From contig NZ_AOMC01000091.1 in assembly GCF_000336695.1 (NCBI RefSeq), positions 38,830 to 102,829 of the forward strand: a DNA stretch of 64,000 nucleotides, written 5' to 3'. The DNA is from Halococcus morrhuae DSM 1307. GTDB taxonomy: Archaea; Halobacteriota; Halobacteria; Halobacteriales; Halococcaceae. A program made the position numbers and the translations under genes. The stretch's first letter is position 1, and each line of letters begins with the position of its first letter. The notes below the pieces were generated by a model. It was given only the letters and a program-made list of their open reading frames with translations, did not search any database and was not told the origin of the DNA. Below, in pieces: positions 48,676 through 59,627 of this stretch.

Positions 48676-49749
48676 TTAGAGACCGAGGTAGCCCGAGGTC
48701 GGGATCACGCCGACGAGGTAGAGTACGCCCACGATGGTCATCGCGACCACGATCGCCATCGCCGGCGGGTCGACGTGCGTGCCGGAGTGCGAGTAGAAGA
48801 CCCGCTGTGTCGCCTCGCCGATGACGCCGGTGAGTCCGCCGAAGAGGGCGGCCCCGAGGATCGCAGGGATCGGGCCACCGATCATCTCCGTCGCGACGAT
48901 GGCCCCGACCGACCCGAGCAGCGTGATGTGATGGGTGACGGGGATCTTCGCGACGCCGAGGTTGAGAAAGAGCAGGCTCATCGCCGAGAAGGCGTAGCCG
49001 AGGAAGATGCTCCCGGTCTCGATCCAGATGTAGCCGCTGAGGATCCCGCCGACGACACCGATGAGGGCGACGCCGGACCACTTGTACTGGTGGCCGAGCC
49101 ACGGCTCGGTCGCCAGCCGCATGCTGTCGGTGCCGCCGTCGGCCACCGCACGCTGTTCCTCGCGCTCGAACGGCGACATATCGAACAGCGAGGAGCCGGA
49201 CGGCGAGCCGACCAGCGGGTAGCCGAAGACGAGTCGGGCGAGCAGCGCCGTCAGGACGACCGACAGCGCGATACCGTCGGTCGGCAAGCCGATCCCGCTC
49301 GCCAACTGATTGATGAGCATGCCGACGACGCCGAAGACCGCGCCGACCGCGAGGATGTCGGGTTTCGTACCGTACGCCTCCGTGATGACCTTCCCTGGAT
49401 GGTAGTCCCAGCCGTCGGGCTCCATCTCGGGATATTTCTTGCCGACGTAGGCCGAGGCGGCCACGCCGGCCGCGAAGGAGATGTGTGGGCCGAAGACCAT
49501 CCCGAAGCCGATCGTACCGGTCAGATCGACACCGAGCGATCCCGCGCCGATCGAGCCGACGTTCGAGGCGAGTTCCCCCTGGAGGATGTTGAGTCCCTCA
49601 CCGAGGAAGATCGCGAAGCCGGTGAAGACGAACGCGGGGAGCGCACCGAGGGCTGCCCCGAACGCCCCACCGGCGAGCGCGGCGATGAACAGCAGGGCGA
49701 ACTCCTCGACGCCGAGACCGATGATCGGGAGCTGGAGCAACGCCTGCAT
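48676..49749 (-). CDS. Putative glycerol transporter downstream of glpK
   Basis: A 357-residue membrane protein with about ten helices (for example MQALLQLPIIGLGVEEFALL at the start, TGTIGFGMVFGPHISFAAGV, and HHITLLGSVGAIVATEMIGG). It starts two bases from the glpK stop. In Haloferax volcanii a gene at the same place (next to glpK) is proposed to be the glycerol uptake protein and has been called GlpF. The sequence has no NPA motifs, so it is not an aquaglyceroporin; if it moves glycerol, it does so with a different fold. ATG 49749 is preferred over longer frames. Confidence 0.72.
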   Translation of the reverse strand: MQALLQLPIIGLGVEEFALLFIAALAGGAFGAALGALPAFVFTGFAIFLGEGLNILQGELASNVGSIGAGSLGVDLTGTIGFGMVFGPHISFAAGVAASAYVGKKYPEMEPDGWDYHPGKVITEAYGTKPDILAVGAVFGVVGMLINQLASGIGLPTDGIALSVVLTALLARLVFGYPLVGSPSGSSLFDMSPFEREEQRAVADGGTDSMRLATEPWLGHQYKWSGVALIGVVGGILSGYIWIETGSIFLGYAFSAMSLLFLNLGVAKIPVTHHITLLGSVGAIVATEMIGGPIPAILGAALFGGLTGVIGEATQRVFYSHSGTHVDPPAMAIVVAMTIVGVLYLVGVIPTSGYLGL

Positions 49750-49750
49750 C

Positions 49751-51283
49751 CTATGCCTCCCGTGCCCAGTCGCGCGAGCGCTCGACCGCCTCACTCCAGC
49801 GCTCGTAGCGGCCATCGACCGATGCGTCCTCGTCAGGCGTGAACTCGCGGTCGATCCGCCAGTTGTCGCGCAGCTTCTCGGGATCGTCCCAGTAGCCGAC
49901 GGCGAGCCCGGCGGCGTAGGCCGAGCCGAGCGCCGTCGTCTCGTCGACCTCCGGGCGCACGATGTCGGTGCCGACGATGTTCGCCTGGAGCTGACAGAGG
50001 AAGTTGTTCTTCACCGCGCCGCCGTCGACCTGAAGACTGCTGATGTCGATCCCCGCGTCGGCCTCCATCGCCTCGGCGACGTCGCGGGTCTGGTAGGCGA
50101 TCGATTCGAGCGCCGCACGGACGATGTGTGCACGCTCCGTTCCGCGGGTCATCCCGACGATCGTTCCCCTTGCACGGCCGTCCCAGTGGGGTGCGCCCAG
50201 TCCCGTGAAAGCGGGAACGAGATAGACGCCGTCGGTCGAGTCGACGCTGCGGGCGACGGTTTCGGACTCCATCGCGTTGTCGAGCAGTTCGACGTCTTCG
50301 AGCCACTCGATGGCCGCACCCGTGACGAAGATCGAGCCTTCGAGGGCGTACTGCACCGGTTCGCCCGAGCGCTGGAACCCGATCGTGGTGAGCAGGCCGT
50401 GATCGCTCTCGACTGCCTCCTCGCCGGTGTTGAGCAGGAAGAACGACCCGGTGCCGTAGGTGTTCTTCGCATCACCGGGGTCGAAACAGGTCTGACCGAA
50501 GAGGGCGGCCTGCTGGTCGCCAAGCGCGCCGGCAACGGGGATCTCCGCGCCGAGGAACCCGTCCGCGTCGGTCGTCCCGTAGAGGTTCTCGTCGCTCGAC
50601 GGACGGACTTCGGGCAGCGCCGCGCGCGGCACCCGGAACTCCTCCAGGAGCTCGTCGTCCCAGTCCATCTCGTGGATGTTGAACAGCATCGTCCGGGAGG
50701 CGTTCGTCACGTCGGTGATGTGGTTGCCCGTGAGGTTCTCGATGAGCCACGAGTCGATCGTGCCGAAGCGCACCTCGCCGTCGGCGGCGCGCTCACGGAT
50801 GTCCTGCGGGCGCGAGCGCTGGAGTTTGATCGGATCGGCGTTGTCGAGGATCCACTCGGCCTTCGTCGCCGAGAAATACGCATCGGGTTCGAGACCCGTC
50901 TTCGCCTGGATCGTCTCGGCCTTGCCGTTCGTTTCGAGCCCCTCGATCCGGTCGGTGGTCCGACGATCCTGCCAGACGATCGCCCGCATGATCGGCCGGT
51001 GGGTGTCGGCATCCCAGAACAGCGTCGTCTCGCGCTGGTTGGTGACGCCGATCGCGTCGAGCCGCGTCGCGTCGATGCCGGCGCTGTCGAGCGCGTCGGC
51101 GATGACCGACTTCGTGTTCTCCCAGATCTCCATCGGGTCGTGCTCGACCCAGCCCGGTTCCGGGTAGTACTGTTCGTGTTTCTCGTAGGCACTGGCGACG
51201 ACCCCGCCACCGTGGTCGAACACCATGAACCGCGTGCCCGTCGTCCCTTGGTCGATCGCGCCGACGTACGTCCCCTCGCTCAT
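49751..51283 (-). CDS. glpK: Glycerol kinase
   Basis: A 510-residue FGGY-family kinase making sn-glycerol-3-phosphate from glycerol and ATP. Signatures: YVGAIDQGTTGTRFMVFDHG (5-24), INQRE-type VTNQRETTLFWDADTHRPIM, YGTGSFFLLNTGEEAVESDH, the FGGY-like VPAFTGLGAPHWDGRARGTI, and LQVDGGAVKNNFLCQLQANI. In haloarchaea this enzyme is the main route of glycerol catabolism. A motif shared with the promoter of the Orc1/Cdc6-like gene lies 41-68 bases upstream of the ATG. Confidence 0.96.
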   Translation of the reverse strand: MSEGTYVGAIDQGTTGTRFMVFDHGGGVVASAYEKHEQYYPEPGWVEHDPMEIWENTKSVIADALDSAGIDATRLDAIGVTNQRETTLFWDADTHRPIMRAIVWQDRRTTDRIEGLETNGKAETIQAKTGLEPDAYFSATKAEWILDNADPIKLQRSRPQDIRERAADGEVRFGTIDSWLIENLTGNHITDVTNASRTMLFNIHEMDWDDELLEEFRVPRAALPEVRPSSDENLYGTTDADGFLGAEIPVAGALGDQQAALFGQTCFDPGDAKNTYGTGSFFLLNTGEEAVESDHGLLTTIGFQRSGEPVQYALEGSIFVTGAAIEWLEDVELLDNAMESETVARSVDSTDGVYLVPAFTGLGAPHWDGRARGTIVGMTRGTERAHIVRAALESIAYQTRDVAEAMEADAGIDISSLQVDGGAVKNNFLCQLQANIVGTDIVRPEVDETTALGSAYAAGLAVGYWDDPEKLRDNWRIDREFTPDEDASVDGRYERWSEAVERSRDWAREA

Positions 51284-51323
51284 CGTCGGCTCCCGTCCGC
51301 ACGCCGCGCGCTTCGACCGGTTT

Positions 51324-51351
51324 TTACTACTACCATGTATCCGTCCGTAAA
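51324..51351. promoter_or_regulatory. Shared glycerol-region motif, glpK copy
   Basis: TTACTACT (51324-51331), 13 bases, then CCGTAAA (51345-51351). The same two blocks with the same spacing occur at 52728-52755. The ends TTAC and GTAA are inverted, suggesting a dimer site. It lies downstream of a TATA-like GATTTATG (minus strand, about 51363-51370), around the expected start of transcription, as a repressor site would. Confidence 0.6.
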
Positions 51352-51445
51352 CAGTATCTTCTATTCACATAAATCTTGCGCAGGCCGTGGTTTCGGCGGC
51401 CGGTCAGCTTCTCGGCGTGGAGCGACGCGCGATCCGTCCCGCTCG

Positions 51446-52675
51446 CTACGCGTTCGCGAGGCCGTGAAGCCGGCCGAAGACCCGTGTCGGGAACCGTGGT
51501 TCGAGGCGGCTCGGCGATCGGCCAGCGCCGACCGAGCGCTCCTCGTTCACCCGTTCGACGATCCCGATCTCGGCGAGTTCGTAGAGCAGCCGCTTCACCG
51601 TCCCCTTCGAGAGCTCCACGCTCGGTGTGGCGGCGACGGCGGTGGCCGCGGCGTCGACCGACGCACGCTGATCGTCGTCGATCTCGACGAGTCGGGCCAG
51701 CACCTGCTGGCGGTTCACCGAGAGCGCGAACACGCGCCCAAGCGAGACCGCCGGCCGCGGGAGGGCGTCCATGCCGACGTGGAGGTCGTGCTCGCGGACG
51801 CCCGAAACCCCCGCGATCGCCGCCTCGTCGGCCGCCGCGAACAGCACACAGAGCGCGTCGTGGGCGTTCCCGTCGGCCCAGACGGCGATGCGACGGAGCT
51901 GTTCGTGCTCGATGGCCCGCCGCGCCATCCCCGCCGACGCGCGAGCCGTCAGGATGTCGACCAGTGCAAGGTCGCGGTAGCCCGGAACCTCGATACGCTC
52001 GGGCGGGCCGTCGATCGAAAGCTCCGACGGCGGTCGATGGCCGATGGCGAGCCAGGAGAGCGAGTCGGCCATCCCGTCGAACGCCGAGACGAGCGACGCG
52101 AGCGACTGCGTGCCGGGTTCGTCGACGTGATCGAACACGACGAGCAGCCGGCGATCGTCCGCAAGCGTCTCGGCCAGCCGCGAGCGGAGCGTGTCCGTCC
52201 CGACGCCGTGTTTCGGCACCGATTCGTCGAGCATCCCGTCGAGAACCGTCTGATAGAGGCCGAACTCGCTGCTCGCGTGGCGCGTGTCGACGTAGACGAG
52301 CGCCGGTGCCGCGTTCGTCCCGCCACGAGTCGAGGTGTGGATCACCGAACCGGAACGCGTTCCCACGCGACGGAGCTGGTCGAGCAGCGCGGTGACGACG
52401 GCCGATTTCCCGCTCCCGGACGGTCCCCAGACGTAGGCGTTCGGCGGGAGGCGGCCGTCGAACACCGGATCGACGTAGTCGAGCAGCCGTTCGAGCACCG
52501 TCCCCCGGTTGGTCGGTTCGTCGACGTGGGCGATGGGGCTGATCGCGTGGTAGTCGAGTACGACCCGTGTCTCCCCAACCGATTCCCGTCGCCGTCGGAT
52601 GCGAGCAGCGAGGTCCACGGTTATCGACCGTACCGGCTCGGTCGTCGACCGCCGATCGACCGAACTCGTCGCCAT
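51446..52675 (-). CDS. Orc1/Cdc6-like AAA+ ATPase with winged helix
   Basis: A 409-residue AAA+ protein. Walker A is GPSGSGKSAV, the Walker B region is LLVVFDHVDEPG (ordinary Orc1/Cdc6 has LDEID-like), sensor and lid parts follow: VPGYRDLALVDILTARASAG and DGNAHDALCVLFAAADEAA, which is the Orc1/Cdc6 GNARKAL-type helix. The last ~85 residues form a winged helix (FALSVNRQQVLARLVEIDDD ... LLYELAEIGIVERV). It lies between glpK and glpA and no origin repeats are seen, so it may be a transcription regulator rather than an initiator. ATG 52675 is likely; ATG 52759 is possible. Confidence 0.75.
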   Translation of the reverse strand: MATSSVDRRSTTEPVRSITVDLAARIRRRRESVGETRVVLDYHAISPIAHVDEPTNRGTVLERLLDYVDPVFDGRLPPNAYVWGPSGSGKSAVVTALLDQLRRVGTRSGSVIHTSTRGGTNAAPALVYVDTRHASSEFGLYQTVLDGMLDESVPKHGVGTDTLRSRLAETLADDRRLLVVFDHVDEPGTQSLASLVSAFDGMADSLSWLAIGHRPPSELSIDGPPERIEVPGYRDLALVDILTARASAGMARRAIEHEQLRRIAVWADGNAHDALCVLFAAADEAAIAGVSGVREHDLHVGMDALPRPAVSLGRVFALSVNRQQVLARLVEIDDDQRASVDAAATAVAATPSVELSKGTVKRLLYELAEIGIVERVNEERSVGAGRSPSRLEPRFPTRVFGRLHGLANA

Positions 52676-52727
52676 CGACGCCGTTCCTCGCCGTCCGACC
52701 CCCTCCCGTTCTCCCGTCTGCTGTCTG

Positions 52728-52755
52728 TTACTACTGACACGTGTTCGGCCGTAAA
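52728..52755. promoter_or_regulatory. Shared glycerol-region motif, Orc-like gene copy
   Basis: TTACTACT (52728-52735), 13 bases, then CCGTAAA (52749-52755); 8 of the 13 spacer bases also match the glpK copy. The centre ACACGTGT (52737-52744) is palindromic. It is 53-80 bases upstream of the Orc-like ATG, just downstream of a TATA-like GCTTATCA (minus strand, 52772-52779). Confidence 0.6.
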
Positions 52756-52905
52756 TCATTGTATGCGGTGATAAGCCTTGTGCGAACGGCGACGAACACC
52801 GCAACTGGCTCGGCGATCGATCGGGAGAATCGGACCGATCGCTCGGCTCGTTCACCGCTCGATTCCCCTTGGAAAGCCGTTATCTACGGCCACTAACCCC
52901 CCACC

Positions 52906-52916
52906 GATAAAATAAA
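52906..52916 (+). promoter_or_regulatory. TATA box of glpABC
   Basis: GATAAAATAAA is centred about 36 bases before the glpA ATG, implying a short leader of roughly 10 bases. A short inverted repeat GCATG-N8-CATGC (52918-52935) follows, at the expected start of transcription. Confidence 0.6.
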
Positions 52917-52946
52917 GCATGTGGAGCGTCATGCACACACGGACAG

Positions 52947-54698
52947 ATGGCAACCGAAACCGAGGCGCTCGTCATCGGCGGCGGCTCGACGGGCTGTGGT
53001 ATCGCGCGTGATCTCGCGCTGCGTGGCGTCGACACCACGCTCGTCGAGCGCGGCAATCTCACCCACGGGACGACGGGCCGGATGCACGGGCTGCTCCACA
53101 GCGGCGGGCGATACGCGGTCTCGGATCAGGAGAGCGCCGCCGAGTGCATCGCGGAGAGTCGCGTCCTCCGCGAGATCGCGAGCCACTGCGTCGAGATGAC
53201 CGGCGGGCTGTTCGTCCAACTGCCTGCGGACGACGACGAGTATTTCGAGGAGAAGCTCGCGGGCTGTCGCGACTGTGACATTCCGGCCGAAGTGATCTCG
53301 GGCGAGGAAGCTCGGGAGATCGAACCGTATCTCACTCGTGACGTCGAGCGCGCGATCCGGGTGCCCGACGGCGCGATCGACCCCTTTCGCCTCTGTGTTG
53401 CCAACGCCGCCGACGCCGAGAAGCACGGCGCGCGCATCGAGACCCACGCCGAGGTCACGGACGTGCTCGTTGAGGATGACCAAGTAACGGGCGTCGAGGT
53501 GCGCCACGAGAGTGGCCCGGGCAAGCGCTCACACCACGAACCCGGCACGACCGAGCGCATCGAGGCCGATCACGTGGTGAACGCGACCGGCGCGTGGGCC
53601 GGGGAGCTGGGCGCGATGGCGGGCGTCGAGGTCGAGGTCCGCCCGTCGAAGGGCGTGATGACCGTGATGAACACCCGACAGGTCGATACGGTCGTCAACC
53701 GCTGTCGGCCGAAGGGTGACGCCGACATCATCGTCCCCCACGAGACGGCCTGCATTCTCGGGACGACGGATGTGGAGGTCGAGGACCCCGACGACTACCC
53801 CGAAGAGCAGTGGGAGATCGACATGATGATCGACACCCTCTCGGAGCTCGTGCCGATCCTGAGCGAGGCCAGAACGATCAGATCCTTCTGGGGCGTGCGC
53901 CCGCTGTACGAACCGCCTGACACCGGCACGACCGATCCGACGGATATCACACGGCAGTTCTTCCTGCTCGATCACGCCGATCGCGACAGTCTGGAAGGGA
54001 TGACGTCGATCGTGGGCGGCAAACTCACCACCTATCGGCTGATGGCCGAGCAGATCACGGATCACGTCTGTGAGAAACTCGGCATCGAGGGGAACTGTCG
54101 CACCGCCGAGCAACCCCTCCCGGGCAGCGAGGATTTCTCGGTGCTTCGTGACTACATGGAGGAGTTCGGGCTGCGCTCGCCGGTCGGCCGCCGGAGCGCC
54201 GAACGACTGGGGAGCAAGGCCGACGAGGTGCTGAAAACCGACGATCCCAACCCCGTTGTCTGCACCTGCGAGGCGGTCACGCGCGCGGAACTCGACCACG
54301 CCATCGCGGACGCGGGCACCGATCTGAACGCGACGCGCATCCGCACTCGTGCCTCGATGGGCAACTGTCAGGGTGGGTTCTGTGCCCATCGGATCGCCGC
54401 ACTGCTCCATCCCGAATACGACGAGGCGACGACGAGAACGGCCCTCGACGAACTGTACGAGGAGCGCTGGAAGGGCCAGCGCCACGCGCTCTGGGGCGAA
54501 CAGCTCTCCCAGGCGATGCTCAACCACGCGCTCCACGCGACCACGATGAACCGGGATCGCGATCCGGCGGCATCGGATGACGGAATCGAGTACGACCGCT
54601 TCGATGCGGGCCCGCCCACGCCGGAAGCGGCAGCCGATGGCGGTCGTGCTGGTGCGTGCGACGGAATCGACGACGGGGAGGACGACCGTGGCGATTGA
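52947..54698 (+). CDS. glpA: Glycerol-3-phosphate dehydrogenase subunit A
   Basis: The FAD-containing catalytic subunit (583 aa) of the membrane-associated glycerol-3-phosphate dehydrogenase GlpABC, making dihydroxyacetone phosphate. FAD motif [20 protein letters not shown] (7-26), then [22 protein letters not shown]-terminal BFD-like [2Fe-2S] domain is seen in [17 protein letters not shown] ... [14 protein letters not shown] (about 432-482). The tail is acidic and repetitive. Its 3' end overlaps the GTG start of glpB by 11 bases. Confidence 0.95.
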
Positions 54699-55965
54699 GG
54701 ACGAGGTCTGCGTGATCGGCGGCGGGCTCGCCGGCATGACGGCCGCGCTCCGAGCGGCCCACGAGGGCGCACGGGTGCGACTGCTTTCACACAAGAAGAG
54801 CACGCTCCGGCACGCGAGCGGGCTCGTCGATATTTTGGGCTACGCCGACGGCGAACTCGTCGCCGACCCGTTCGACGCACTCTCCTCGCTCCCCAAAACT
54901 CATCCCTACCGGCGGGTCGGGAACGATGCCGTGCGAGCCGGACTATCCCTGTTCGACGACGTGACAGGCGACGCCTACCGGGGAACCCACACCGACGCGA
55001 ACGCGCTCGTGGCGACCCACGGCGGCACCGTGAAACCGACCGCGCGCTACCCGGCGCGCGTGGCCCCGGGGCTGGCGAGTCGGGATCGGAAGACGCTGCT
55101 CGTGGGGTTCGATTCGCTGACCGCCTTCGACGCGCCGCTCGCAGCCGACCACCTCGCTGCCGCCGGCGTTCCAGGCACGACGCGCGGCGTCACCGTCGCG
55201 TTCCCCGGCGATTTCAGGGCCGACTCGCGCGTGACGCGCTTCGCCCGCGCGCTCGACGATGACGAGACCGTCGAAACCGCGAGCGGATCGACGCCGGTAC
55301 GGCGCGCGCTCGCGCGGACTCTCGAATCCCATCTCGGGGACGCGGAGCGGGTCGGGTTTCCGGCGGTGCTCGGCGAGGGGGAGTCTCAGGAAGTCCGCGA
55401 AGCGCTCGAATCGTCTCTCGGGATCGACGTGTTCGAGGTCCCGATGGGACCGCCGAGCCTGCTCGGACTCCGGCTCGAAGCGCTGTTCCAGGAAGCGCTG
55501 GACGAGGCGGGCGTACGACGGACGACCGGCAACCCCGTCACGGAGTTCGACGCGAGCGACGGACGGATCCAAAGCGTGTCGACCGACCGCAACGGCCGAC
55601 CGACACCGTTCCACGCCGACGAGTTCGTGCTCGCGACCGGTGGACTGGTCGGCAAGGGGATCGACTCGGATCGCGAGGGGGTCGTCGAACCGGTCTTCGA
55701 CTGTCACGTCCCCCACCCCGACGACCGCTACGAGTGGTTCGACGACGAGGCGTTCGGCGACCACCCGTTCGCGCGCTTCGGGGTCGACGTCGACGACGAT
55801 CTGCGACCGCTCGACGCGGACGGAGGAGCGGAGTACGACAACCTCCGTGCCGCCGGGGGCGTTCTCGGCGGGGCGGATTTCGCGGCGGAGAAGTCAGGTA
55901 GCGGCATCTCGCTGGCGACCGGTCACGCGGCCGGCCGTGCGGCGGGCGCGGCGGCGAACCAGTGA
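54688..55965 (+). CDS. glpB: Glycerol-3-phosphate dehydrogenase subunit B
   Basis: The 425-residue GlpB flavoprotein. The N-terminus [20 protein letters not shown] is an FAD-binding motif; [20 protein letters not shown] and the C-terminal [20 protein letters not shown] are typical of GlpB. GTG 54688 was chosen: it gives the FAD motif at the right distance and couples to glpA by an 11-base overlap. GlpB passes electrons from GlpA to GlpC at the membrane. Confidence 0.93.
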
Positions 55966-55970
55966 TACAC

Positions 55971-57332
55971 ATGAGCGACGCACCAACCCACGACGCCGAC
56001 GAGTTCGAACCGGTGGACGTCTTCGAGACGACCGAGATGGATCTCCGCCCGGGCGCGGACGACTGTTACAAGTGTTCGACGTGTGATACGTCCTGTCCGG
56101 TCGCCGAGGTCGACGACGAGTTCCCCGGCCCGAAGTTCCAGGGCCCCGAACAGTGGCGGCTCAAGCGTAAGGAAGATCACGAGATCGACGACTCGATCAC
56201 CTCCTGTTCGAACTGTATGCGCTGTGACGACGCCTGTCCCTCCTCGGTGCCGCTGAGCCAGATGCACAACACCGCACGCGGCGAGTACGTCGAGAATCAG
56301 CGGTTCGGCCGGGAGGCGCTGTCGGCGCTCGTCGACGGCAGTCCACGCGAGGCGCTCGAAATCGTCCGTGAGGGCCAGGACGGGCTCGTCGAACGACTCA
56401 GGAATCGAATTCTCGCGAACTACCACACGTCGGCGTGGCTCGCCTCCTACGCCCCGAGCGTCGCGAACTTCGTCATGAACTTCGGGCCGGCGCGCTGGGC
56501 GATGGCAAAGACGATGGGCGTGACGAGCGAGCGCGAGTTCCCGGCGTTCGCCGACCACACCTTCCGCGAGTGGTGGACCGCCCGCGGTGGTGCGCAGGTT
56601 TCGAATCCCGACAAGCGGGTGGCGTACTTCCACGGCTGTTACTCGAACTTCAACACGCCCGAGGTCGGCAAGGCGATGGTCAGAGTGTACGAGGAGTTCG
56701 GCTACGAGATCCTCGTTCCGCCACAGAAGTGCTCGGGTACGCCGATGTTCGCCAACGGGATGCTCGGCGACGCGCGCCGCCACGCCGAGACCAACGTGAA
56801 GAACCTCGCCGCAGCGATCGAGAACGGAGCCGAGATCGTCGCCTCCTGTACCTCCTGTTCGATGGCGCTCGGCCAGGAGTACCCCGAACTGTTCGATCTC
56901 GACGGCATCGAGGACGTCGCCGCCCACACCTACGAGGGCGTCGAGTATCTCCGCCTGCACGAGGATCTGGAGGGCGCACTCGATGAAGCGTCCGTCGAGG
57001 GAAGCGAGTTCGCCTACCACGCCCCGTGTCACGCACGCAATCAGGGGCTCGACACGCAGGCCGTCGAACTGTTCTCGGATCTCGACGGCGTCGCCATCGA
57101 GGACGTCGGCGATTCCTGTTCGGGGATTTCAGGGACTTACGGCTGGAAAGAGGAGAAGTACGACTACTCGATGGAGATCGGCGAGGAGATGTTCGAGCAT
57201 ATGGAGCACGCCGACGGCGAGACCGGGATGACCGAGTGTCCGACCTGCGCGATGCAGATGGAACACGGCACCGGCTACGAGATCCGCCACCCGCTCGAAC
57301 TGCTCGAAGAGGCACTGGTCACGGGCTCGTAA
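55971..57332 (+). CDS. glpC: Glycerol-3-phosphate dehydrogenase subunit C
   Basis: A 453-residue iron-sulfur membrane-anchor subunit. Two [4Fe-4S] motifs CYKCSTCDTSCP (32-43) and CSNCMRCDDACP (82-93 region), followed by two CCG domains (VAYFHGCYSNFNTPEVGKAM with KCSGTP; YHAPCHARNQGL with SCSGISGTYG) as in GlpC and heterodisulfide reductase-like subunits. It hands electrons to the quinone pool. ATG 55971 was chosen; a GTG three codons earlier overlaps the glpB stop (GTGA) and is possible. Confidence 0.94.
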   Translation: MSDAPTHDADEFEPVDVFETTEMDLRPGADDCYKCSTCDTSCPVAEVDDEFPGPKFQGPEQWRLKRKEDHEIDDSITSCSNCMRCDDACPSSVPLSQMHNTARGEYVENQRFGREALSALVDGSPREALEIVREGQDGLVERLRNRILANYHTSAWLASYAPSVANFVMNFGPARWAMAKTMGVTSEREFPAFADHTFREWWTARGGAQVSNPDKRVAYFHGCYSNFNTPEVGKAMVRVYEEFGYEILVPPQKCSGTPMFANGMLGDARRHAETNVKNLAAAIENGAEIVASCTSCSMALGQEYPELFDLDGIEDVAAHTYEGVEYLRLHEDLEGALDEASVEGSEFAYHAPCHARNQGLDTQAVELFSDLDGVAIEDVGDSCSGISGTYGWKEEKYDYSMEIGEEMFEHMEHADGETGMTECPTCAMQMEHGTGYEIRHPLELLEEALVTGS

Positions 57333-57427: not shown

Positions 57428-58603
57428 ATGGACACCGAGCCGACGACACACCGGGTACCGACGCGACGCGACTGTCTGAAATACGGCGGTGCGGCGGTTG
57501 GCGGGGGACTGCTCGCGGGTTGCACAGGAAAGGGCGAGTCGGGCAACGGGACGAGCGGCTCCAGCGGGACGACGACAGGATCGGGGAGATCGCACTCGGT
57601 GACGATGGCACCGGTGGGCGACGTCGAGTTCGAGAGCATCCCGGAGACGTGGATCGCGAACAACGGCAGCTGGGCGGACATGGGGATCGCGCTCGGCCGG
57701 GAACCGCCGAAGGGGCTCTGGCGACCCAACCGGTATCACACGCACGTCTACGACGACGTCCCGGGCATCGACGTGCACTGGAAGGACCTCGACGAGCTGT
57801 GGGGCAAGTCGCTCAGCAAGGAGCGGTTCTACGAGCTCGGTGCCGACGTCCACGTGTTCGATCCCGTCTTCGTGCTGAGCCGATCGAAATGGAAGCAGGC
57901 CGATCTCGACGAAATCCGCGAGAACGTCGGCCCCGTGTTCGGCAACAGCAGCTACTCTCGCGCGTTCCAGTGGCACGACCATCGGTACTACTCCCTCTAC
58001 GAGGCGTTCGAGAAGCTCGCGCAAGTCTTCGGCGCGGAGCAGCGCTATCGCGCGTTCGAGCAGCTCCATGACGAGTTCATCGGTCGGGTGCAAGACCGCC
58101 TCCCGCCGGAATCCGAGCGCCCCTCCGTGGCGATCCTCCTCGTTTCCTCGAACGAGCCCGAGGAGTTCTATCCCTACCCGATCAACGAGGGAACGTCGTA
58201 CAAACAGTGGCGCGATCTCGGTGCCACGAGCGCCCTCGAAGAAGCTGGAATAAAGGACTACTACGTCTCCGGCGGGACGATCGACTACGAGACGCTGGTC
58301 GAGGCCGATCCGGACGTCCTGCTCATGTGGGACGGCCGCGGTCGCTTCGAGCGCATGTCCCGCGAGGAATTCCAGGACACGCTCGTCTCGTTCATGGAGA
58401 ACCACGACGTGGCGAGCCAGCTGACCGCCGTCGAGAACGACGCCGTTCACCGCGGTGCCGGCATCTATCAGGGGCCGATCATCAACCTCGCGTGGACCGA
58501 GCGCGGCGCGTGGCAGCTCTATCCCGACGAGTTCGATCGGGACGAACAATTATTCGATCGCCAGCGCGTCGCCGACATCGTCGCGGGGAGCGTCTCGCCG
58601 TGA
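57428..58603 (+). CDS. Iron(III)/siderophore-type ABC substrate-binding lipoprotein
   Basis: A 391-residue periplasmic-binding-protein-like lipoprotein (PF01497 type). The N-terminus has a Tat motif (TRRDCLKYGG) and a lipobox (LLAGC, Cys32 as lipid anchor), then a Gly/Ser/Thr linker. The core has two lobes with DVHVFDPVFVLSRSKWKQAD and ETLVEADPDVLLMWDGRGRF, as in siderophore/cobalamin-binding proteins. The iron-box promoter supports a role in iron uptake. No permease or ATPase gene is next to it, so it must share components encoded elsewhere. Confidence 0.88.
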   Translation: MDTEPTTHRVPTRRDCLKYGGAAVGGGLLAGCTGKGESGNGTSGSSGTTTGSGRSHSVTMAPVGDVEFESIPETWIANNGSWADMGIALGREPPKGLWRPNRYHTHVYDDVPGIDVHWKDLDELWGKSLSKERFYELGADVHVFDPVFVLSRSKWKQADLDEIRENVGPVFGNSSYSRAFQWHDHRYYSLYEAFEKLAQVFGAEQRYRAFEQLHDEFIGRVQDRLPPESERPSVAILLVSSNEPEEFYPYPINEGTSYKQWRDLGATSALEEAGIKDYYVSGGTIDYETLVEADPDVLLMWDGRGRFERMSREEFQDTLVSFMENHDVASQLTAVENDAVHRGAGIYQGPIINLAWTERGAWQLYPDEFDRDEQLFDRQRVADIVAGSVSP

Positions 58604-58715
58604 GCCGGAACACGCCGTTCGACCGTGCGAACTACTCCGTCGATCGTCCGTCGACCGTTTCGTGCCGGAACAGCACGGTTGGGCCGCCAACTGAGGAGCG
58701 GGGGTAGAGCGGATC

Positions 58716-59627
58716 ATGATCGGGACGACGCTCGGCGACATCCGCGATCACATCGAATCGCTCGCCAGCGATGACGGCGAGTACACCCTCGTCTGTAGCC
58801 GATACGGCGATCGACCCGTTCCAGCCGCCGAGCTCCGATTCCCGAACCGGGCCACAGCCCGCGCGGCCGCACAGGCCGCCGAGCAGTATCGGGCCGCGCT
58901 CCGCCGGTACGATCCCCGACTTCCCTATCACGACGTGATCGTCCAGCAAAACGCGCCGCGATACGACGGGGGCGGCCCGTCGGATCGGCGCTCGTCGGAT
59001 CGAAGCAACCGCGTCGAGCCCGATATTGCAGGACGGATCGAGCGCCACGAACTCGTCGAGTTCTGCCATCGTACCGCCGCTGCCGTCTTCGAGACGCTCT
59101 CCGAAGCGGGCTACGACGCCGTCGAAACGGCCGTCATGGATCGCTATTTCGATCTCGCCGAGTCCATCTCCGAACCCGACGATCTCTGTCTCTGCCTGCT
59201 CGAAGGGATGGCCGTCGAACTCGACACGCGACTCGATCCGACGGCTCAGCGTGACGTCCTCTCGGCTGCCGCGCGTCGTCTCTCTTCGCCCATCCGATCG
59301 ACCGACGGGGAGCCGGTCGCGGCGACGCTTGCGTATCTCCGTGACCGCGGCGTGCTCCGTGGTTCGGCTCGTTCGTCGGGCGCGATCGAACCCGATGACG
59401 GCGTGCGGTCGGTCGTGGTGGAGCTGTCGGAGTACGCGCTGACGCCACACGACGGGCGGCTCCCGACGCTCCCGCTGGTCGTCGAACTCTCCCGTCGTCG
59501 TTCCGAGTGGCTGCCGGCACCGGTTCGAGTGGAGGCCATCGACGACGGCTGGCGCATCCGGTTCGCGCCCGCACGCGAAACCGATCCGATCGGGGTGGTG
59601 GGCGCGCCGATCGTTGCTGACCGCTGA
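58716..59627 (+). CDS. Uncharacterised haloarchaeal protein (303 aa)
   Basis: I do not recognise a named family. The first ~75 residues (MIGTTLGDIRDHIESLASDD, GEYTLVCSRYGDRPVPAAEL, ARAAAQAAEQYRAALRRYD) look like a small alpha/beta module; a linker at about 85-105 is charged; the remainder is helical, then beta-rich near the C-terminus (SVVVELSEYALTPHDGRLPT, LPLVVELSRRRSEW). The two-part layout resembles haloarchaeal conserved hypothetical proteins. It follows the iron-binding protein gene by 112 bases on the same strand but has no clear link to it. Confidence 0.65.
   Translation: MIGTTLGDIRDHIESLASDDGEYTLVCSRYGDRPVPAAELRFPNRATARAAAQAAEQYRAALRRYDPRLPYHDVIVQQNAPRYDGGGPSDRRSSDRSNRVEPDIAGRIERHELVEFCHRTAAAVFETLSEAGYDAVETAVMDRYFDLAESISEPDDLCLCLLEGMAVELDTRLDPTAQRDVLSAAARRLSSPIRSTDGEPVAATLAYLRDRGVLRGSARSSGAIEPDDGVRSVVVELSEYALTPHDGRLPTLPLVVELSRRRSEWLPAPVRVEAIDDGWRIRFAPARETDPIGVVGAPIVADR

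Follow-up and report, generated by a model that had tools for sequence, protein, structure and literature searches.

The glycerol genes of the window (the whole 64,000-nucleotide stretch of DNA that was analysed) are grouped around orcR, a gene whose product, OrcR, is related to the Orc1/Cdc6 replication initiators. The genes and predicted sites are as follows.

51446-52675, minus strand: orcR, encoding a degenerate Orc1/Cdc6-type AAA+ plus winged-helix protein (OrcR), 409 aa from ATG 52675
49751-51283, minus strand: glpK, glycerol kinase (FGGY family), predicted target
48676-49815, minus strand: gene for a conserved membrane protein, next to glpK on its downstream side, unmatched in Pfam and NCBIfam
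52947-54698, plus strand: gpdA, FAD glycerol-3-phosphate dehydrogenase subunit A, predicted target
54577-55965, plus strand: gpdB, in an operon with gpdA
55962-57332, plus strand: gpdC, CCG-domain Fe-S subunit, in an operon with gpdA
52727-52755, minus strand: predicted operator in the orcR promoter (TTTACGGCCGAACACGTGTCAGTAGTAAC, 0 mismatches), with a TATA-like CTTATCA about 20 nt upstream
51323-51351, minus strand: predicted operator in the glpK promoter (TTTACGGACGGATACATGGTAGTAGTAAA, 0 mismatches); a TATA-like TTTATG (51373-51368) begins 22 nt upstream of it
52883-52911, plus strand: predicted operator in the gpdA promoter (TCTACGGCCACTAACCCCCCACCGATAAA, 1 mismatch), its right half overlapping the TATA box AAATAAAG (52910-52917)

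orcR is flanked downstream by glpK and the membrane protein gene and upstream by the divergent gpdA-gpdB-gpdC operon. Its position between glpK and gpdABC agrees with the first-pass annotation, which had placed it inside a glycerol gene cluster. The membrane protein gene (48676-49815, minus strand) directly follows glpK in most loci. A role in glycerol uptake has been suggested for its Haloquadratum homologue HQ1732A (PMC5496347), and the protein is possibly a co-regulated glycerol uptake protein. Beyond gpdC, positions 57428-59627 (plus strand) hold a periplasmic-binding-protein gene and then one for a DUF7552/DUF7551 protein; SBP relatives recur near some glp loci.

The minus-strand open reading frame of orcR (51446-52675) was verified from its ATG. 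The real start is probably GTG 52618 (V20), which would give a protein of 390 aa and place the ATG 19 codons too early, because most OrcR homologues begin with M-D/N-L at residue 20. A 1096-aa open frame lying antisense to glpK and orcR (49481-52771, plus strand) is probably only a G+C-rich shadow frame.

OrcR is an AAA+ protein, matching Pfam PF13191 (AAA_16) at 63 bits and also AAA_22, with a weak match to the Cdc6 lid. Against the TIGR02928 orc1/cdc6 model it scores 68.5 bits, below the curated cut-off of 181.3, which five other genes in the same genome (full Orc paralogues) exceed. The nearest solved chains, by sequence and by profile, are the archaeal Orc1/Cdc6 proteins 2qby and 2v1u, and the predicted fold (AlphaFold model, mean pLDDT 77.6) matches 2qby_A with E = 1.8e-17. 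Homology to Orc1/Cdc6 extends over the AAA+ domain, lid and winged helix in both sequence and predicted fold; the initial description of an origin-binding-type AAA+ protein with a winged helix is upheld by the PF13191 match and by the sequence and fold matches to 2qby and 2v1u. A protein from Halococcus thailandensis is 96% identical to OrcR, and the winged-helix segment TVKRxLYELAE...GRxPS is among the best-conserved parts of the family. Residues ~101-124 (52303-52375, minus strand) form a family-specific insertion with an invariant I-x-T-x-T-R and low model confidence, which is possibly a DNA- or ligand-contacting loop.

The ATPase of OrcR is degenerate, as was seen when 85 OrcR sequences were aligned. 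Walker B retains its Asp, but the catalytic Glu is replaced by His in 85 of 85; the altered Walker B first noticed in the window (FDHVDE) is thus an invariant feature of the family. In sensor 1, Arg, Gln or His has mostly taken the place of Asn; no Arg-finger segment is left; and at sensor 2, 84 of the 85 sequences have His instead of Arg. The Lys of Walker A (GxxGxGK[ST]) is retained in 78, the other seven, all Natrialbaceae loci, having Thr. In these loci (L011-L017, GAGTS) the last nucleotide-binding hallmark has gone in one lineage. Most of these features survive in the genome's five full Orc paralogues: each has the Lys of Walker A, the Arg of sensor 2 and an Arg-finger segment that can be recognised, and the Walker B residue is Glu in four and Asp in one. 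Since the catalytic residues have gone, ATP hydrolysis is very unlikely to be part of the OrcR mechanism and, on this reading of the alignment, is essentially excluded; nucleotide binding seems possible in most members and dispensable in some. Sensing of ATP, which the first-pass annotation had suggested, was accordingly rejected as a hydrolysis-based mechanism, as catalytic residues are lost and the Natrialbaceae proteins are without even the Walker A Lys.

The distribution of orcR follows that of glpK. In a survey of 394 genomes of the class (OrcR at E ≤ 1e-20, glpK at E ≤ 1e-150), OrcR was found in 302 haloarchaeal genomes and glpK in 343. Both were present in 300 genomes, OrcR only in two, glpK only in 43 and neither in 49, so that 49 of the 51 glpK-less genomes were also without OrcR (Fisher P = 3e-34, the cells being genomes and not independent events). 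Conservation beside glp clusters, proposed early on as a check, is borne out by the fact that orcR adjoins glpK, gpdA or their paralogues in nearly all of 73 loci. Within the cluster, which it does not leave, orcR is found in several arrangements (orcR-glpK-X, glpK-X-orcR, gpdABC-orcR or orcR divergent to gpdA). Extra OrcR paralogues occur in G221 (L102 and L103) and G302 (L101); both of those in G221 adjoin divergent FGGY sugar kinases with 47 to 55% identity to GlpK, and are perhaps regulators for other substrates.

The promoters of glpK, orcR and gpdA share a 29-bp inverted repeat, TTTAC-N19-RTAAM, with one mismatch at gpdA. Of the two copies recognised at first, at glpK and orcR, both are exact; the degenerate third copy at gpdA (52883-52911) had been missed. 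Exact matches in the organism's own 3-Mb genome are confined to the glpK and orcR copies, no further exact site being found in the whole genome and one-mismatch sites being otherwise at control level, although this exclusivity counts for less than independent tests as the pattern was partly derived from these same loci. Across OrcR-containing genomes, the best site had no more than one mismatch in 56 of 76 glpK and 34 of 62 gpdA upstream regions, compared with about 1% in shuffled sequences, and the half-site spacing in these regions peaks sharply at 19. The motif common to these promoters is confirmed, at a frequency far beyond chance.

These sites are also phased with the promoter. In 42 of the 56 glpK sites, the distance from the start of a TATA-like box to the site is exactly 22 nt, and ten of the 76 glpK promoters have an additional upstream site (O2) directly before the TATA box. 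For gpdA, 25 of 34 sites have the start of the TATA box at +27, and some 35 nt separate the end of the site from the start codon. Assuming a transcription start about 27 nt beyond the TATA box, the glpK site spans approximately -8 to +21; the gpdA site overlaps BRE/TATA.

Gene and site have been lost together. A site with ≤ 1 mismatch was present at glpK or gpdA in 62 of 72 genomes with OrcR and in 0 of 14 genomes that lack OrcR and keep glpK, nearly all of them with gpdABC (P = 4e-10). A profile search of these OrcR-less genomes revealed distant Orc paralogues only (≤ 53 bits). Within six genera (g1, g16, g31, g33, g52 and g61), species with and without OrcR differ accordingly in the site. 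Two apparently OrcR-less genomes with sites (G284 and G384) are incomplete assemblies whose contigs end at the expected orcR position. Exact sites cluster at the glp locus in 16 genomes with OrcR; in 13 without it they are few, and none is at glp. Ten of the 72 OrcR-containing genomes have no such site, and at glpK it is diverged or missing in Haloferax and Halorubrum-like genomes. These cases weigh against OrcR acting through the site; in the two groups named, the site may have co-evolved or may be read differently.

Sites away from the glp locus are informative. In G278, a genome-wide search revealed an exact site immediately preceding another gpdABC operon, which lies 1.7 Mb away from glpK and orcR. 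In G179 (genus g40), a site precedes an operon for a type-2-G3P-oxidase/GlpA-like FAD enzyme, with near-identical sites in sister species. Such positions would fit a trans-acting regulator and make an effect of local neighbourhood hard to invoke. The extended set in G179 (L220, L221 and L222) also includes sites preceding a NiFe-hydrogenase operon and close to a gene of PhsA/DMSO-reductase type. Some extra sites in other genomes, for example a near-identical pair in G330 and G129, were set aside, having the appearance of chance or coding matches.

OrcR, derived from an Orc1/Cdc6 initiator, is therefore very likely to act through the 29-bp site as a local regulator that controls the transcription of glycerol-catabolism genes and of its own gene. 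The first-pass annotation had proposed a replication-initiator-derived transcription factor controlling glpK and itself; synteny, motif exclusivity and within-genus co-loss strongly support that proposal, to which gpdABC is now added as a predicted target. In the mechanism envisaged, OrcR would bind the TTTAC-N19-GTAAA repeat through its C-terminal winged helices at the promoters of glpK, gpdABC and orcR itself. It would probably do so as a dimer, since the site is an inverted repeat with half-site centres 24 bp apart. Repression would be lifted when glycerol or a metabolite derived from it is present, and the AAA+ domain, without ATP hydrolysis, would probably serve in dimerisation and/or ligand binding. 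The gene, its degenerate ATPase, its genomic linkage and the motif, with the exclusivity, phasing and co-loss of that motif, are observed; binding, sign and signal are inferred, and it is by co-occurrence that the motif is assigned to OrcR. A more doubtful suggestion is that the emptied AAA+ pocket, with invariant or near-invariant His replacing the Glu of Walker B and the Arg of sensor 2, senses a phosphorylated glycerol metabolite such as glycerol-3-phosphate.

As to the sign of the predicted control, repression is somewhat favoured because the glpK site covers the expected transcription start and the gpdA site covers BRE/TATA; overlap with the start region or with BRE/TATA is typical of repression. 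Activation or dual control retains a substantial share of the probability. OrcR acting as an activator, bound just upstream of BRE/TATA (at gpdA and at O2 of some glpK promoters) and recruiting TBP/TFB when glycerol is available, is a realistic if less probable alternative. The gpdA site ends at the TATA box in fixed phase, that box (AAATAAAG in the window) is non-consensus, and sites placed upstream of TATA, as at gpdA, would suit activation, as would the extra glpK site directly before TATA and the retention in Haloferax glpK of the upstream half-site only. There is also a precedent in Sulfolobus Orc1-2, which activates genes with its motif in their promoters (PMC10470591). However, the main glpK site and the orcR site lie downstream of TATA over the start region, which is unusual for an activator.

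The remaining alternatives to a glycerol regulator of this kind are much weaker. Given its Orc1/Cdc6 homology and fold, and since haloarchaeal initiators usually recognise sites adjoining their own gene (PMC3528665), OrcR might be a genuine though divergent initiator, with an origin at the glp locus whose unusual ORBs are the inverted repeats. This is very improbable: the sites are single and in nucleotide-exact phase with the TATA boxes of separate genes, they recur at unlinked glycerol operons, all ATPase-catalytic residues are lost, and orcR and site have repeatedly been lost together while glpK stays. Nor has any origin been assigned to orc15 of Hfx. volcanii (PMC2841640). The window holds eight ORB-like repeats against 10.8 expected (one ORB-like pattern), hence no excess, in keeping with the early remark that none were visible. 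It is unlikely, though less so, that the motif is read by another, co-inherited regulator (for example, of TrmB or GlpR type) and that OrcR is a mere neighbour with a different role. The co-occurrence behind the pairing of motif and OrcR leaves room for this, but the co-loss in six genera, the absence of the site from 14 of 14 OrcR-less genomes and the presence of a site in orcR's own promoter argue against it, as does the fact that OrcR is the only regulator-like gene consistently seen in the locus. Finally, the glpK repeat lies within the likely 5' UTR and could in principle be an RNA hairpin rather than a DNA operator. This can hardly be so, as folding is no better than that of shuffled sequences (z ~0 to 0.6) and the gpdA site, upstream of TATA, would stay untranscribed.

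There is a known case of an Orc1/Cdc6 paralogue with a role in transcription: Orc1-2 of Saccharolobus/Sulfolobus islandicus regulates the DNA-damage response (PMC10470591). OrcR would resemble it as a paralogue that regulates through a conserved promoter motif; what is seen is the motif at the predicted targets and its co-occurrence with orcR. Whereas Orc1-2 belongs to the DNA-damage network of a thermoacidophilic crenarchaeon and has other targets, OrcR has a degenerate ATPase, its predicted site is a 29-bp inverted repeat found at glycerol genes, and its predicted role is metabolic and local; this metabolic pseudo-ATPase version is new. With archaeal Orc1/Cdc6 initiators (2qby, 2v1u), including the haloarchaeal Orc/Cdc6 proteins that use ORBs (PMC3528665), OrcR shares the AAA+, lid and winged-helix architecture. 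It differs in the loss of the Walker B Glu, of both sensors and of the Arg finger, in having no ORBs and in its predicted DNA site. Two haloarchaeal regulators of glycerol and sugar choice, GlpR (DeoR family) and GfcR of H. volcanii, control sugar catabolism (PMC12853182) and belong to protein families unrelated to OrcR.

In H. volcanii, orc15 (HVO_1537) is annotated as an Orc1/Cdc6 replication protein with no origin assigned (PMC2841640, Table 4). Haloferax genomes were recognised by means of a published H. volcanii glpK primer (PMC12366361). In these genomes orcR is divergent to gpdA-gpdB-gpdC-glpK-X, and by gene order Haloferax OrcR matches orc15, HVO_1537 lying four loci before glpK (HVO_1541). 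The intervening HVO_1538-1540 are presumably gpdA1B1C1. Unlike those of the window, the main glp promoters of Haloferax retain a diverged, partial site. A canonical site does accompany the second OrcR copies seen in that genus (L077 and L078, g24), one of which adjoins a second glpK. In the literature searched, of limited coverage and hence no proof of absence, neither a function for orc15 nor a glycerol role for any haloarchaeal Orc was found.

One widespread group of "replication" genes is thus very probably a glycerol regulator. OrcR is relevant to the retention of so many orc genes by haloarchaea (PMC3936714) and to the control of glycerol genes, the activation of glycerol metabolism in H. 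volcanii being "not yet fully understood" (PMC12853182). It comes with an exact DNA site and, in orc15 (HVO_1537), a test gene in a tractable laboratory species. If the role is confirmed, replication-initiator annotations of OrcR-type genes will need correction, and if the AAA+ pocket were indeed a metabolite sensor, OrcR would be an initiator turned into a one-component repressor of metabolism, a type hitherto undescribed.
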